IMG/VR virus record: IMGVR_UViG_3300009183_000135
Location: 1-45,605 of that record
From: a virus
DNA length: 45,605 nt
Strand: one strand, 5' to 3'
Shown piece after piece: positions 10,081 through 15,521 of the stretch; position 1 is the first letter of the stretch, and every line of letters begins with the position of its first letter. The position numbers were made by a program, and so were the translations under genes. A model generated the notes under the pieces. That model had not been told where the DNA came from and did no database searches. It saw nothing but the letters and a program-made list of their open reading frames with translations.

Positions 10081-11193
10081 TTAAATTACATATATTTGAC
10101 GAGGCATAGCTCTGAATTTCATTTGCTTATTTAAATTTTCAGCAATAAGGGCTTCTTTTTCCATTTGTTTTTCAGGTCTAAGTCTTTCAAGTCTTAGTTT
10201 TAATTCTTCTTCTAACTTAGTTTTTTCATCTTTACCTTCAGTTAAAAGACTTGTATAGTCCATTTGGATTTCAGAGTCAGGGGTTTTTAAGTTTCCACTA
10301 TATTTCCCTCTAACTCTACCTAACGTTTCTTTAACGTAAGCGGTAAACCATCTTCTTACCCATTGTTGTGCAGGTACATTTAAATCTGTCCAAGTAAACT
10401 CTTCTAAAGGAACTTCATTAGGCATTTTAATTACATCAGGATTATTTTTTAAACAATCCGCCCTACTATCAGGAGTTACATCGTAATACCAATACCAAAC
10501 AGCTTTACCGACATATCCGCTATAATTATTCCAATTAAAATGATTACCAGGAGCGTTATATAACTGTACGTTTCTTTTACCATCAGGTAACGCAGTAATT
10601 CTATATGTTAACGAACCACCTAAAATTCTATTCATAATGTTTGCCTCTTGCATTCTTAACAAGTAGTCAAAACCTGACATCATAAAGTAAGAACCTTGAT
10701 AACCCATTTGAGCAAATCCTACTTCATTCGCACCTAATCCAACACCACCAAAACCACCAATTCCACCCATACCAAATGCAGTCCAAGGTTGGTTACTAAA
10801 CCATAATAACTCATTAATCTCTCTACCTGCAGGTATTTCATAATCTTGTTTGTTTGGCTCAAGAAGAAAATAATCTTTTTTAAGTACCCATGGACCCATA
10901 GTTTGAAGTCCAACAATTTTTGAATACGAATATGCAAATTGTTGTTCAAAATCCATGGTTCTTGTAATTAAAGCTTGAGCAACAGACTTTTCAGTCATGT
11001 TCAAGTTAACCAAGTTAACCCACTGACTTTCAATTAACCAATCAAGAACATATTGTTCATAATCTTGAATAGATAGTTCCATCAAAGAATCCATCATTTC
11101 ATCTTCAATCTCAACACTTCTTAATGGTGCACCCAATAAGTGTTTAATTCTTGTATAAATTTTTGACCTTTCTGGTTCTGGAATAACTGCCAT
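10081..11193 (-). CDS. Putative neck or head-tail connector protein
   Basis: 370 residues. The N-terminal half is helical and rich in aromatic residues (DYEQYVLDWLIESQWVNL, WVLKKDYFLLEP). A Gly-rich stretch (FGMGGIGGFGGVGLG) lies near residues 140-155, and the C-terminal part carries WVRRWFTAYVKETLGRVRGK followed by a charged helix. I associate the KETLGRVRGK region with neck or connector proteins of T4-like phages, from memory and not by alignment. It has a TATTTAT element 5 nt before its start and is followed at 4 nt by the 111-residue gene. It may correspond to T4 gp13; the virion location is more certain than the exact role. Confidence 0.55.
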   Translation of the reverse strand: MAVIPEPERSKIYTRIKHLLGAPLRSVEIEDEMMDSLMELSIQDYEQYVLDWLIESQWVNLVNLNMTEKSVAQALITRTMDFEQQFAYSYSKIVGLQTMGPWVLKKDYFLLEPNKQDYEIPAGREINELLWFSNQPWTAFGMGGIGGFGGVGLGANEVGFAQMGYQGSYFMMSGFDYLLRMQEANIMNRILGGSLTYRITALPDGKRNVQLYNAPGNHFNWNNYSGYVGKAVWYWYYDVTPDSRADCLKNNPDVIKMPNEVPLEEFTWTDLNVPAQQWVRRWFTAYVKETLGRVRGKYSGNLKTPDSEIQMDYTSLLTEGKDEKTKLEEELKLRLERLRPEKQMEKEALIAENLNKQMKFRAMPRQIYVI

Positions 11194-11220: not shown

Positions 11221-12750
11221 TTAAATACTGTAGAGCAGTGAATCTTTTGGAAAAACAAAATTACCACCTACAATTTTTGGTTTTTGATTGAACACTAAAA
11301 CATTTTTTCCTTTTTGGAAAACCATCCAATCTGTTTTGTATAACTTAACACTTGCGGTACCTTCTAAAACAATACCATCCTCAGTTTCAATCATATTTCT
11401 AAACGGTTTAATCTGAGCGGTATATAATTGTCCATCTTTAAAAACTTCTAAATCCACACCTTGTATTGCGTCTTTTTTATTACCAAGTTCTCCAACCACC
11501 TCAACCTTAGCGGTTTTACCAAAAAACCTCTTAAGTATTGATGCCGTGATTTCTTCTCTTTTACTTCCTGCTTTATCTTTTTCAGTTAAAATTCTTAATA
11601 AATTTTGAAAAGTTGAACTTTCTTTATCAAAGATTCTAAACTTAAAATGGTTTAATGCATTAACAAATCTTTCAACCTCTTTCTTTTGTTGTGATGGAGT
11701 TTTATCCATAAATTGAATGGGTTCTTTATTAGGAATTGTTGCAATAACATTATTTAAATCTTTTAATAAGATACAAAAAGATGTGTAGTTTGTGTTTAAT
11801 TTATTAATAACAGACCTGCCAGGACCCTCAAGATTATAAACACCAGGTAATTGGTCGTTGTCTGGTTTTTCAATATAGTTTTCATTGAATACTTCTTTCA
11901 TGATTTTATTAATACCATTCATGAAAGTCCATTTTATATCGGAATTTGCATTGAATAACATTCTATAGAATTCATTCTCTGATTGAGAACACATTTCAGA
12001 TTTACCCTCACTTAACAATTGTTTTAATTTTGTTGATTCAGTTAATTTTGTTTCAATTTTCATTTCGTACATTTTTGTTACAAAATCCCAATTAACTACT
12101 TTCCAAAAGTTTGTGATATATTCATCTCTTTTGTTTCTATATTTTAGATAATAAGCATGTTCCCATAAATCTAGTCCTAATAGTGGAAATCCACCCCCTT
12201 CAATCACATTCATTAATGGATTGTCTTGGTTTGGAGTTGACATAATTTTTAAAGTATTTTTTGAGGTTAGAACTAACCATACCCATCCAGAACCAAATCT
12301 TTCTTTGGCTTGTTTTTCAAATTCTTTTTTGAATGCGGTGAATGTCCCCCATTGTTTGGTGATTTTTTTGTAAAGTTCACCATCAAGTTTTTTGGGTTCA
12401 GGAGTTAACATGTTCCAAAATAATGCGTGGTTAAAAGCACCACCTGCATTATTTCTTATGTTTTTATCAAAACGACTAATTGTTTTGATTATTTTTTCTA
12501 AATCTAAATCTCCGTATTTTTTCTTTGATAATGCGTCGTTTAGTTTATCCACGTACCCTTTATAATGTTTATTATAATGAAAGTTCATTGTTTCTGGGTC
12601 AATAAACTGTTTGAGGGCTGTATAAGAATAAGGTAATTTCTCTATTCCTATTTTTTTCATTTCTGTAATCAACAACTCTTTTTCTTTGTTAACGTGGGTT
12701 TCAAGTATCTGTAGTTCTAGTTGTTGGATTTTCTCTTCTGTTTTTTTCAT
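11221..12750 (-). CDS. Fe/Mn superoxide dismutase fused to a PD-(D/E)XK-like domain
   Basis: 509 residues. After a charged N-terminal helix (1-~35), residues ~36-225 form a complete Fe/Mn superoxide dismutase domain. The metal ligands can be placed at His58 (MNFHYNKHY), His108 (FNHALFW), Asp194 and His198 (LDLWEHAYYL), so the domain should convert superoxide to oxygen and peroxide. Residues ~226-509 are not SOD. They contain an ITASILKRFF helix, then GVDLEV (Asp433) and AQIK (446-448), an arrangement typical of PD-(D/E)XK nuclease-like folds with Gln replacing the usual Glu. SODs are normally ~200 residues. The gene follows the SNF2 helicase at 41 nt with its own TATTTATA. The nuclease assignment is by motif only. 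Confidence 0.8.
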   Translation of the reverse strand: MKKTEEKIQQLELQILETHVNKEKELLITEMKKIGIEKLPYSYTALKQFIDPETMNFHYNKHYKGYVDKLNDALSKKKYGDLDLEKIIKTISRFDKNIRNNAGGAFNHALFWNMLTPEPKKLDGELYKKITKQWGTFTAFKKEFEKQAKERFGSGWVWLVLTSKNTLKIMSTPNQDNPLMNVIEGGGFPLLGLDLWEHAYYLKYRNKRDEYITNFWKVVNWDFVTKMYEMKIETKLTESTKLKQLLSEGKSEMCSQSENEFYRMLFNANSDIKWTFMNGINKIMKEVFNENYIEKPDNDQLPGVYNLEGPGRSVINKLNTNYTSFCILLKDLNNVIATIPNKEPIQFMDKTPSQQKKEVERFVNALNHFKFRIFDKESSTFQNLLRILTEKDKAGSKREEITASILKRFFGKTAKVEVVGELGNKKDAIQGVDLEVFKDGQLYTAQIKPFRNMIETEDGIVLEGTASVKLYKTDWMVFQKGKNVLVFNQKPKIVGGNFVFPKDSLLYSI

Positions 12751-12771: not shown

Positions 12772-12779
12772 TATAAATA
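12772..12779 (-). promoter_or_regulatory. TATTTATA late-promoter-like element (minus strand)
   Basis: The minus strand reads TATTTATA here, 21 nt before the ATG at 12750. Confidence 0.45.
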
Positions 12780-12791
12780 ATCCGTAGTTGC

Positions 12792-14543
12792 TTAATATCT
12801 CAACTGATTAATTCTTTGTAGAATTTCTTCTGCTGCATCAGCAGGATTTTGGTTGTCACCCATAACTGTTGCGATGACTTGTTTCTTGTTGTTCAATATA
12901 TCATAAATGATACCTTCAATCGTATTTTCAAAAATTGGATAGTATACTAATACATTGTTATTTTGACCGTAGCGATATGCTCGGTCTTCAGCTTGTGCGT
13001 GGTCTGATGGTAAGAATGAAAGGTCATTCATGATTACCGCTTCTGCTGATGTTAAAGTAATACCAACACCTGCGGCTTTAATGTTACCAACAAAAACTTT
13101 AACCTTTGGGTTGTCTTGGAATTGGTCAACAGAGTATTGTCTTTCAGGTTTTGACATTGAACCATCAAGTTTAACTGCAAGTTTTCCAAAATGTTCTGTA
13201 ATTTTATTTAAAGAATCTGTGAAATTACAGAATATGATAACTTTCTTGTCTTGTTCTAAAATGTTTTCGGCAAGTTCAATTGTCTGAGCAATTTTCTCGT
13301 CAGCAATAATTTGTCTAACCTTTGTTAGTTTTGAAAATTGAACTGTTAGTGATTTTGACTCTTCAGGATTTTTATCATACCAATCATAATATTCCCCCAT
13401 AACATTTTCATATTCTTTAGATTTTAATCTAAGATATACAGGGGTAATAATTTTATCGGGTAGGTCAAGAACATTTTCTTTTAATCTTCTTAATGTTAAT
13501 CCTACAGTTCGGTCTCTTAATTCCTCTAAATTTGATGCACCCGTCACATTCCAAACTTTTCTTCCGCCAACATTAAATTGATATCCTTGACAATATCTGA
13601 TAGCATATGCCATCCAATTCTTTGCAACAGGGGAATCAATCAAACTTAATAAGTTGAAATAATCAATTGGTCGTGATGTCATTGGGGTACCTGTCAATAA
13701 CCACAATCTGTCAGTTTTTTTAACGATATCGTTAATTAGTTTCGTCCTTTGCGCCGTAGCATTTTTGATATAGTGTGCTTCGTCAATAATAACCAAATCA
13801 AAATTGGCAGCAAGAACTTGAGATTCATCTTTCTTTTTAGGGTCATGGAAATTTTTTATTATGTCGTAGTTTATAATTACAAAATCCGCCTCAGTACTAA
13901 AGTTTTTACTTTCCGCAATGTAGATTGATTTGTCTGAATAATTTTCAATCTCACGTTTCCAGTTAATTTTTAAAGTAGCGGGACAAATGATTAAAACTTT
14001 TTTAGAACCTGATTCTAATGCTGCAATGATTGTTGAGGTTGTTTTACCAAGACCCATGTCATCAGCCAAGATAAACTTTTTATTTTCAACTAATTTTTGA
14101 ATTGCTTCTTTTTGATGTTCTAATGGAGGACGGTGAGAATATTTGGAATAATCAATCACAACATCTTTAACTGAATTATCTTTAATGATTGCTGCCTTTG
14201 GTAACCAAAAATCATGTAATTCTTCTTTTTCAAAAACTTTACCCCAAATGTGGTAAGCCTTTTCTTTATCTGCTAATAATTTTTCAACCCAAACTTTTTG
14301 AGGTATTTCGGTATATAATTTATCGTCAGCTAATTTTTGTGCAAAGTAGGCGTCAAGAATCACCCACTTCTTGGCAACCTTTGGTTGCTTGTCGTGGAAG
14401 TTAATAATATACTCTGATTGACTTCTTGTTGGGTAAAATTTTTTGTTAAGTTGTGACTTACGTTTTAACTCTAACATGTAATTATTACCACCTTCATATG
14501 TTTCAAGAATCGTCAATGCCTTTGACTCCAAACTTATTTCCAT
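12792..14543 (-). CDS. SNF2-family DNA helicase/translocase
   Basis: 583 residues. Helicase motifs in order: Walker A DDMGLGKT (161-168), motif II DEAH (254-257), motif III LTGTP (283-287), and motif VI QAEDRAYRYGQ near residue 530. The spacing between lobes fits an SF2 SNF2-type ATPase. The N-terminal ~130 residues precede the helicase core and are unassigned. It is expected to remodel DNA structures such as stalled forks or recombination intermediates; in T4 that role belongs to UvsW and Dda, which are different families. It is the first gene of the minus-strand group, and a degenerate TTATTTTTA lies ~31 nt before its start, divergent from the gene at 14599. Confidence 0.9.
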   Translation of the reverse strand: MEISLESKALTILETYEGGNNYMLELKRKSQLNKKFYPTRSQSEYIINFHDKQPKVAKKWVILDAYFAQKLADDKLYTEIPQKVWVEKLLADKEKAYHIWGKVFEKEELHDFWLPKAAIIKDNSVKDVVIDYSKYSHRPPLEHQKEAIQKLVENKKFILADDMGLGKTTSTIIAALESGSKKVLIICPATLKINWKREIENYSDKSIYIAESKNFSTEADFVIINYDIIKNFHDPKKKDESQVLAANFDLVIIDEAHYIKNATAQRTKLINDIVKKTDRLWLLTGTPMTSRPIDYFNLLSLIDSPVAKNWMAYAIRYCQGYQFNVGGRKVWNVTGASNLEELRDRTVGLTLRRLKENVLDLPDKIITPVYLRLKSKEYENVMGEYYDWYDKNPEESKSLTVQFSKLTKVRQIIADEKIAQTIELAENILEQDKKVIIFCNFTDSLNKITEHFGKLAVKLDGSMSKPERQYSVDQFQDNPKVKVFVGNIKAAGVGITLTSAEAVIMNDLSFLPSDHAQAEDRAYRYGQNNNVLVYYPIFENTIEGIIYDILNNKKQVIATVMGDNQNPADAAEEILQRINQLRY

Positions 14544-14598: not shown

Positions 14599-15111
14599 AT
14601 GCAAAAATTAGTTCCAATTACAAGGTTAGGCAAATTCTTCGGTGAGGAGGATTTTGTATTAGATATTGGTATGGGTGAAGAGTGGTTAGTGGGTGATATG
14701 AATTTCACGGTTGTGTTATACCGTGTTGATAGATATCGCACAAAAACTGATGATGTGTATGGTGAAGTTTTAGAAGATGGAATACAATTCATGGCACCTA
14801 TAGAATTGAACGGTTATGTTCAAATCATGGCTCCAACTAACAAATTACTTGGTAATTCTAAAGTTAAACAAGATGAGCCAGGTAATATGAAATTTTCAAT
14901 TTACCAAAAAACTCTTGATGATATGCAAGTTAATATCCTTATGGGTGATTACTTTGGATATTATGAAACTGAAGACCGAATTAGATATTATACGGTTATT
15001 GATGATGGACTTGTTAAGTCAGACAATAAACATACTTATGGTGGATACAAACCGTTCTATAGAACAATAACCGCAACATATGTAAGCGAAAACGAATTTA
15101 GAGGATTATAA
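14599..15111 (+). CDS. Putative virion protein, possibly neck protein
   Basis: 170 residues, beta-rich (MNFTVVLYRVDRYRTKTDD, RIRYYTVIDDG, YGGYKPFYRTITATYVSE). No enzymatic motif. It opens a three-gene run (14599-16569) with a 1-nt overlap and a 4-nt gap. The run ends with a probable tail terminator and is followed by the sheath gene, so a head-tail joining role (compare T4 gp14 or gp3) is plausible from context only. A TATTTAT element immediately upstream supports late expression. Confidence 0.6.
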   Translation: MQKLVPITRLGKFFGEEDFVLDIGMGEEWLVGDMNFTVVLYRVDRYRTKTDDVYGEVLEDGIQFMAPIELNGYVQIMAPTNKLLGNSKVKQDEPGNMKFSIYQKTLDDMQVNILMGDYFGYYETEDRIRYYTVIDDGLVKSDNKHTYGGYKPFYRTITATYVSENEFRGL

Positions 15112-15521
15112 TGAAAGTAGTAATAACTGAATCTCAGTTTGATAATTTATTTTTGGGTAAGAAAGTTATGGTGTATTATAATTTACACAAACATACTTTT
15201 TCGGTCACCTATGATAGTAAAGTAATTATGCATGCTGACTATGTTAAATTAGGAGATGTTGAGTTTAGAGTTAGAAAAGGTGGTAAAGAAAAAGTTCGTT
15301 CTGAAAAATCAAAGAATGTTCACGCATTTGTAATTGGAAAATTATTAGATTATTGTGAATATCCATGTGACGATTTACCAACCTCAACTTCTGATAAAGT
15401 TGTTACATATAATCCATATAAATTTGATTCGTTTGTTTATAAAGACAGTGAAGAACCTGTTTATCATGCAAATGAAGTTGATATGATAAATTCGCAAAAT
15501 AAAATATTTGTTGTAAAATAA
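15111..15521 (+). CDS. Small protein of unknown function
   Basis: 136 residues, basic in the middle (VRKGGKEKVRSEKSKN). It starts MKVVITESQFDNLF and ends NSQNKIFVVK. Its ATG overlaps the stop of the upstream gene by one base, and the next gene begins 4 nt after its stop, so all three are translated together. I recognise no family. The ITESQ start resembles the N-terminal tag-like segments of other proteins in this kind of phage, but no function follows from that. Confidence 0.6.
   Translation: MKVVITESQFDNLFLGKKVMVYYNLHKHTFSVTYDSKVIMHADYVKLGDVEFRVRKGGKEKVRSEKSKNVHAFVIGKLLDYCEYPCDDLPTSTSDKVVTYNPYKFDSFVYKDSEEPVYHANEVDMINSQNKIFVVK

Follow-up and report, generated by a model that had tools for sequence, protein, structure and literature searches.

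What a phage might gain by joining an antioxidant enzyme to a DNA-acting domain is the question raised by one gene in the virus record IMGVR_UViG_3300009183_000135, whose entire stretch of 45,605 nucleotides is referred to here as the window. The initial annotation described the product of this gene as an active-looking superoxide dismutase (SOD) fused to a nuclease-like module, regarded the pairing as unusual for a phage, and offered three possible roles for it: protection of DNA near a defence that generates reactive oxygen species (ROS), action as a packaged virion enzyme, and coupling to the SNF2 helicase encoded upstream. Freshwater phage SODs, packaged phage enzymes, and PD-(D/E)XK proteins are all known already, and a phage SOD by itself is not rare, such enzymes having been reported in freshwater phages among assorted ROS genes (PMC6802176). 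As for the pairing, the open-access literature searched was found to describe neither a phage SOD-nuclease fusion, with or without protease-like sites at its junction, nor a phage virion SOD.

The fused gene and its relatives

The gene (11221..12750, minus strand) is a single open reading frame that starts with ATG and encodes 509 amino acids. A scan of viral contigs returned 205 relatives, and a first set consisted of 157 sequences. Further scans, with the C-terminal part, the neighboring gp14, and the C-terminal-only and SOD-only forms as queries, enlarged the collection to 463 loci; these are loci and not phages, as some overlap as stretches of the same contig. The two halves are fused in 395 of them, the C-terminal half occurs without SOD in 57, the halves are split in 5, SOD occurs alone in 4, and neither half is present in 2. 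A frame that stays open in 395 of the 463 loci is neither a chance product nor an assembly join. The fusion is genuine, as the initial annotation held, and it is by far the commonest arrangement at this locus. Two separate genes in related genomes had been named in advance as evidence against it, and loci that lack one half or both do exist in the numbers just given, but the fused form still prevails. The carriers are a family of uncultured T4-like phages.

The full set contains 150 distinct fused sequences, with identity down to 45%, and 24 distinct C-terminal-only sequences. Estimated dN/dS ratios of ~0.02-0.08 for the SOD part and ~0.07-0.26 for the C-terminal part indicate that both are under purifying selection. 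The protein begins with a coil or leader (residues 1-35; 12646..12750, minus strand), recognized in the alignments by the conserved sequence [TN]EMKKIGIE. A candidate internal start, the conserved Met230, shows no Shine-Dalgarno sequence, and none was seen at the gene starts that were read. In two loci (L425 and L426) the frame is broken between SOD and the C-terminal part, which is degraded, and another (L470) has an apparent single frameshift at the same place, either real or a sequencing error.

Genomic neighborhood and a promoter-like box

Two constant neighbors flank the gene. The upstream one encodes an SNF2-family helicase (12792..14543, minus strand; Pfam and PHROG matches) and occupies this place in each of the 133 loci that extend far enough to include the gene; the downstream one encodes a gp14-like neck protein (head-tail adaptor Ad2; 10081..11193, minus strand; PHROG 211, E=2.8e-11) and does so in 147 of 147. 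The gp14 of these phages had no match in isolated phages. The proposed coupling to the helicase had synteny as its sole ground and was set aside, since the helicase keeps its place in the two loci where the fusion is missing (L283 and L318). In some relatives the helicase is enlarged, to 1307 residues in L283 (13-3936) and 961 in L140 (2383-5265), and the inserts in the former look like one or two inteins. Elsewhere in the window, positions 343-1926 encode two proteins with TPTPTPT-like repeats.

A box, TATTTATA, lies upstream of the fusion gene (12772..12779, minus strand) and is conserved in most of the relatives shown. In G001, one of the long relatives, it precedes 28 genes against 1.4 expected (~20-fold), including those for what we take to be the portal, gp21 protease, sheath, and tube, names that draw in part on gene place and family matches. 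It lies mostly 11-50 bases upstream of many structural genes (G001, which comprises L165-L174). The T4 late box is TATAAATA, unlike TATTTATA. Judging from the genes that it precedes, TATTTATA is likely a late promoter of this phage group.

The SOD domain

Residues 36-230 (12061..12645, minus strand) form an Fe/Mn SOD domain of the Mn type, as indicated by Pfam, PDB relatives, and NCBIfam. The Pfam matches, Sod_Fe_N at residues 36-115 (E=2.1e-22) and Sod_Fe_C at residues 124-226 (E=5.5e-40), both score far above the curated cut-offs. Among solved structures, Sphingobacterium sp. T2 MnSOD (PDB 6gsc; E=7.4e-58) comes closest to residues 38-231, and the Mn form of SOD ranks first in NCBIfam, though below its equivalog cut-off. 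The domain also contains NNAGG and NQDNPL, which we take to be Mn-type signatures. The four metal ligands listed in the initial annotation, His58 (12577..12579), His108 (12427..12429), Asp194 (12169..12171), and His198 (12157..12159, all on the minus strand), are invariant in the 150 distinct fused sequences, as they were in 157 of 157 in the first set. With a complete ligand set, the domain is predicted to be an active Mn-type enzyme.

The nearest bacterial SODs are mostly from Bacteroidota and ~50% identical, and TAnnTTTG boxes are found upstream of other genes. Because of these two features, the host is likely a member of the Bacteroidota.

The C-terminal half

Sequence searches of the C-terminal part against Pfam, PHROG, NCBIfam, PADLOC, and PDB gave no significant match; DUF6602 recurs as a weak one in 13 of 16 members (best E 0.0012). 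A search with the profile of this part found no paralogue in the loci examined and no bacterial relative. In the full-length AF2 model the SOD part was poor with the alignment used (pLDDT <50 in places), and a fold search with that model returned only SODs, so the C-terminal part was refolded alone. The resulting model, built from 33 aligned sequences, has a mean pLDDT of 91.3 and a pTM of 0.85. It consists of a helical subdomain (residues 251-377; 11620..12000, minus strand) and a second domain (residues 378-509; 11224..11619, minus strand). Foldseek comparison with PDB places the homing endonuclease I-Ssp6803I (probability 1.00, with a modest E of 6.3e-3) and Hjc resolvases at the top. VIA aligns 99 residues with Archaeoglobus fulgidus Hjc at an rmsd of 3.4 and a Z of 8.3, modest by the program's own yardstick, and its ranks 1-26 are nearly all PD-(D/E)XK proteins, with many branches of the superfamily in the list. 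Between them, the Foldseek and VIA matches include I-Ssp6803I, Hjc, NhoI, and RecU. The VIA comparison covered model residues 162-279 (residues 392-509 of the protein) and hardly included residues 251-377.

Invariant residues follow the order expected of this fold. Glu399 (11554..11556) and Asp433 of the GVD motif (11452..11454), both putatively catalytic, Asp427 (11470..11472), and the Gln and Lys of Gln446-x-Lys448 (QIK; 11407..11415), all on the minus strand, are invariant in the 150 fused and 24 C-terminal-only sequences. The last motif occupies the (D/E)xK position, with Gln446 where the PD-(D/E)XK motif has Asp or Glu; QxK occurs in active members of the superfamily, such as Mrr. Because the list of matches is uniform and the invariant E...D...QxK residues stand in the right order, residues 378-509 are assigned, on the strength of the model, to the PD-(D/E)XK fold with an intact-looking site, and nuclease activity is predicted. 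The initial suggestion that the extra ~280 residues are nuclease-like thus holds for the fold as such, which is formed only by residues ~378-509.

Could this half be a Holliday-junction resolvase whose task is to remove branches ahead of packaging? Such a function would account for the place of the gene beside a neck gene; Hjc is the best fold match, RecU and a resolvase from Thermus phage 15-6 appear among the matches as well, and an endonuclease VII match above the family cut-off was seen in 0 of 9 relatives, a count weakened by the possibility that these records are fragments. The resemblance to Hjc is seen at the level of fold, with no Pfam or PDB sequence match for the C-terminal part. 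However, Z values of 7-8 are common background, the list spans many PD-(D/E)XK branches, and two phages do without the gene altogether. We consider a resolvase very unlikely.

The viral structure database BFVD holds a member of the same SOD-plus-C-terminal family, the 501-residue A0A6J5L953 of an uncultured Caudovirales phage (TMq 0.85 over the C-terminal part). A second entry there, the 1113-residue A0A8D9CCA0 of an uncultured marine phage, holds the whole C-terminal fold (TMq 0.80, 18% identity) and points to a wider family of this domain in other fusions.

Protease-like motifs in the linker

The two domains are joined by a linker (residues 231-250; 12001..12060, minus strand) with pLDDT below 50 at residues 234-251 of the full-length model. 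It carries two short motifs, LTE/S at residues 236-239 (12034..12045) and LSE/G at residues 246-249 (12004..12015, both on the minus strand), where the slash follows the Glu. In 45 sequences nonredundant at 95% (nr95), the first fits [LI]xE[GAS] in 91% and the second fits [LIM]xE[GAS] in 100%, and a scan of the same set for the latter pattern found only these two positions conserved. Among 76 nr90 sequences, which extend down to 45% identity, the linker has at least one [LI]xE[GAS] in 72 and two [LIM]xE in 73, despite its varying sequence and length, and [LI]xE[GAS] is kept in no segment outside it. The consensus of the T4 prohead protease gp21 is L/I-x-E. The linker motifs look like this cleavage pattern and are putative sites. 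In T4, gp21 cleaves such motifs behind the Glu and removes propeptides at the N terminus, and prohead proteases are known that have several sites in one propeptide (PMC9026906; PMC10052503).

The enzyme that would be needed is encoded by the long relatives: G001, G002, and G008 contain Peptidase_S77, the gp21 family, with E values down to 2.8e-26. The long relatives also encode gp23, with a propeptide ending in [FY]LINE/A in all four gp23 sequences read. Neither gp21 nor gp23 was found in the 45.6-kb window record, which is a piece of a genome, and the N terminus of gp21 in G002 has no LxE motif. [LI]xE is a loose motif, and several relatives depart from it: a few fused linkers have no Gly, Ala, or Ser after the Glu, some C-terminal-only proteins have LTE/K, and in L366-L369 the Glu itself is lost (LVLIQ).

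N-terminal [LI]xE is enriched about two-fold in the long relatives, occurring in 20 of 156 proteins in G001 and 14 of 119 in G002 versus ~6% in later segments. N-terminal LxE leaders were considered as a mark of late genes but are not relied on here, their association with the box being significant in G001 (p=0.006) and not in G002 (p=0.84). Several unrelated proteins have an N-terminal leader of the form K[LI][TS]ES..[IL]...[VI]LxE, which resembles the fusion linker (G001, 108576-109043 and 122712-123575; the window, 15111-15521; L256, 14257-14724).

Natural variants at the locus

The space between the helicase and gp14 holds several natural variants. In L306, L336, and their kin, the C-terminal part stands alone, with an N-terminal leader that ends in LVLSE/SKAEKC. 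In L372 and L373, compared with their fused neighbors L384, L402, and L404, ~200 residues of SOD have been deleted in frame, and the N-terminal coil (residues 1-35) and the motif, here IISE/GKSERC, are kept. SOD is found alone in L322/L416 and L327, and neither half in L283 and L318. The LxE leader, internal in the fused form, is N-terminal in most C-terminal-only relatives. Because each half occurs alone at the same locus and SOD is deleted cleanly in L372 and L373, the halves are separable modules, with the LxE motif staying with the C-terminal one. On a gp14 tree, the SOD and C-terminal labels need 8 changes, which points to repeated loss or exchange of halves.

These variants bear on two other explanations. 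The first holds that the protein is never cut and works in the infected cell as a bifunctional enzyme, whose nuclease-fold part, active or only DNA binding, anchors SOD on the DNA and lets it clear superoxide beside replicating phage genomes. The predominance of the fused frame, odd if the parts were always separated, agrees with it, as does purifying selection on both parts, and Gln in place of Asp or Glu in QxK leaves room for a binding-only role. Yet a tether is not needed, as either half can stand by itself at this locus, the conservation of LxE in the linker exceeds what a tether needs, and the invariance of E...D...QxK, fused or not, favors catalysis over mere binding; an uncut enzyme is thus unlikely. 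Even less probable is the second explanation, in which an auxiliary SOD for the oxidatively stressed host and an unrelated nuclease, active in counter-defence or host DNA degradation, simply share a frame at a variable cargo site. It would fit the separate gain and loss of SOD and the C-terminal part, the two phages with neither half, the assorted ROS genes of freshwater phages (PMC6802176), and the resemblance to SODs of Bacteroidota, but it leaves unexplained why two motifs are conserved in the linker and one frame is kept across 45-100% identity, and it does not account for the late-type box.

A packaged precursor as the favored role

On balance, we lean toward the view that the fusion protein is a late head precursor, split by gp21 into a packaged SOD and a packaged nuclease-fold protein. 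The gene would be expressed late, and during head maturation a gp21-type prohead protease would cut its product after LTE-238 and/or LSE-248, separating the Mn-type SOD from the PD-(D/E)XK-fold protein. Both products would stay in the capsid with the DNA and might be ejected into the host, in the manner of Alt and the internal proteins of T4. SOD could scavenge superoxide near the phage genome, whether packaged or newly injected, or within the stressed host, and the nuclease-fold part could act after entry on host, competing, or branched DNA. Protection of DNA near a ROS-generating defence, as first suggested, may be a further role.

Such a precursor is favored because the linker is the sole place in the protein with conserved [LI]xE[GAS], because the long relatives encode gp21 along with a gp23 whose propeptide ends in LINE/A, and because the motif lies near the N terminus of the C-terminal-only sisters and persists in L372 and L373. 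The box shared with portal, gp21, sheath, and tube genes and the precedents discussed below argue in the same direction. The case is weakened by the looseness of the motif, its merely two-fold enrichment, a box association that did not replicate, and the relatives that break the motif. Packaging, an idea already raised in the initial annotation, hence gains indirect support from the linker motifs, gp21 and gp23 of the long relatives, the late-like box, and the adjoining gp14. The fuller version, a two-enzyme cargo polyprotein from which the antioxidant enters the host together with phage DNA, is more tentative, and we hold it to be somewhat doubtful.

If this reading is true, the prohead-protease step does more than trim propeptides, as it also frees two distinct enzymes from a single packaged precursor, and the particle would bring in an antioxidant along with a DNA-acting protein just as infection begins. 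This would bear on how phages handle ROS-linked stress or defence at entry. It would also suggest a sequence rule, LxE-flanked cargo in phages with gp21, that predicts packaged proteins of uncultured phages.

Comparison with known systems

The SOD domain resembles Fe/Mn SODs of the Mn subtype (PDB 6gsc) in having full N- and C-terminal domains, the four ligands, NNAGG and NQDNPL, and the E197/H198 pair. Unlike the matched solved SODs, the fusion is extended by 35 residues at its N terminus and by 279 at its C terminus. The C-terminal extension is easily overlooked, as at least one public record, that of A0A6J5L953, names the protein solely superoxide dismutase and leaves the C-terminal part without a name. 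Residues 378-509 share with archaeal Hjc, I-Ssp6803I, RecU, and NhoI the PD-(D/E)XK fold and the order E...D...(Q)xK, but differ from that superfamily in showing no detectable sequence similarity, in the Gln replacing Asp or Glu, in the helical subdomain, and in the attached SOD.

The internal head proteins of T4 and Alt, which are packaged and cut by gp21, offer the closest parallel for the proposed processing: the carriers are T4-like, with gp21 and gp23 in the long relatives, and LxE/G or LxE/S directly precedes the C-terminal part, close to the N terminus in most relatives that have only this part. In contrast to those proteins, the fusion has its motif internally, between two enzyme domains, and its packaging is a prediction. 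T4 internal proteins are packaged by short capsid-targeting sequences (PMC3012670), which are N-terminal, whereas the site in the fusion is internal. A precedent for a virion SOD is A245R of the chlorovirus PBCV-1, which is encoded by a late gene and carried inside virions (PMC7019647); the phage protein is likewise a viral SOD, with a late-type box upstream of its gene. The PBCV-1 enzyme differs in being of the Cu/Zn type, in belonging to an algal virus, and in standing free of any nuclease fusion (PMC7019647).
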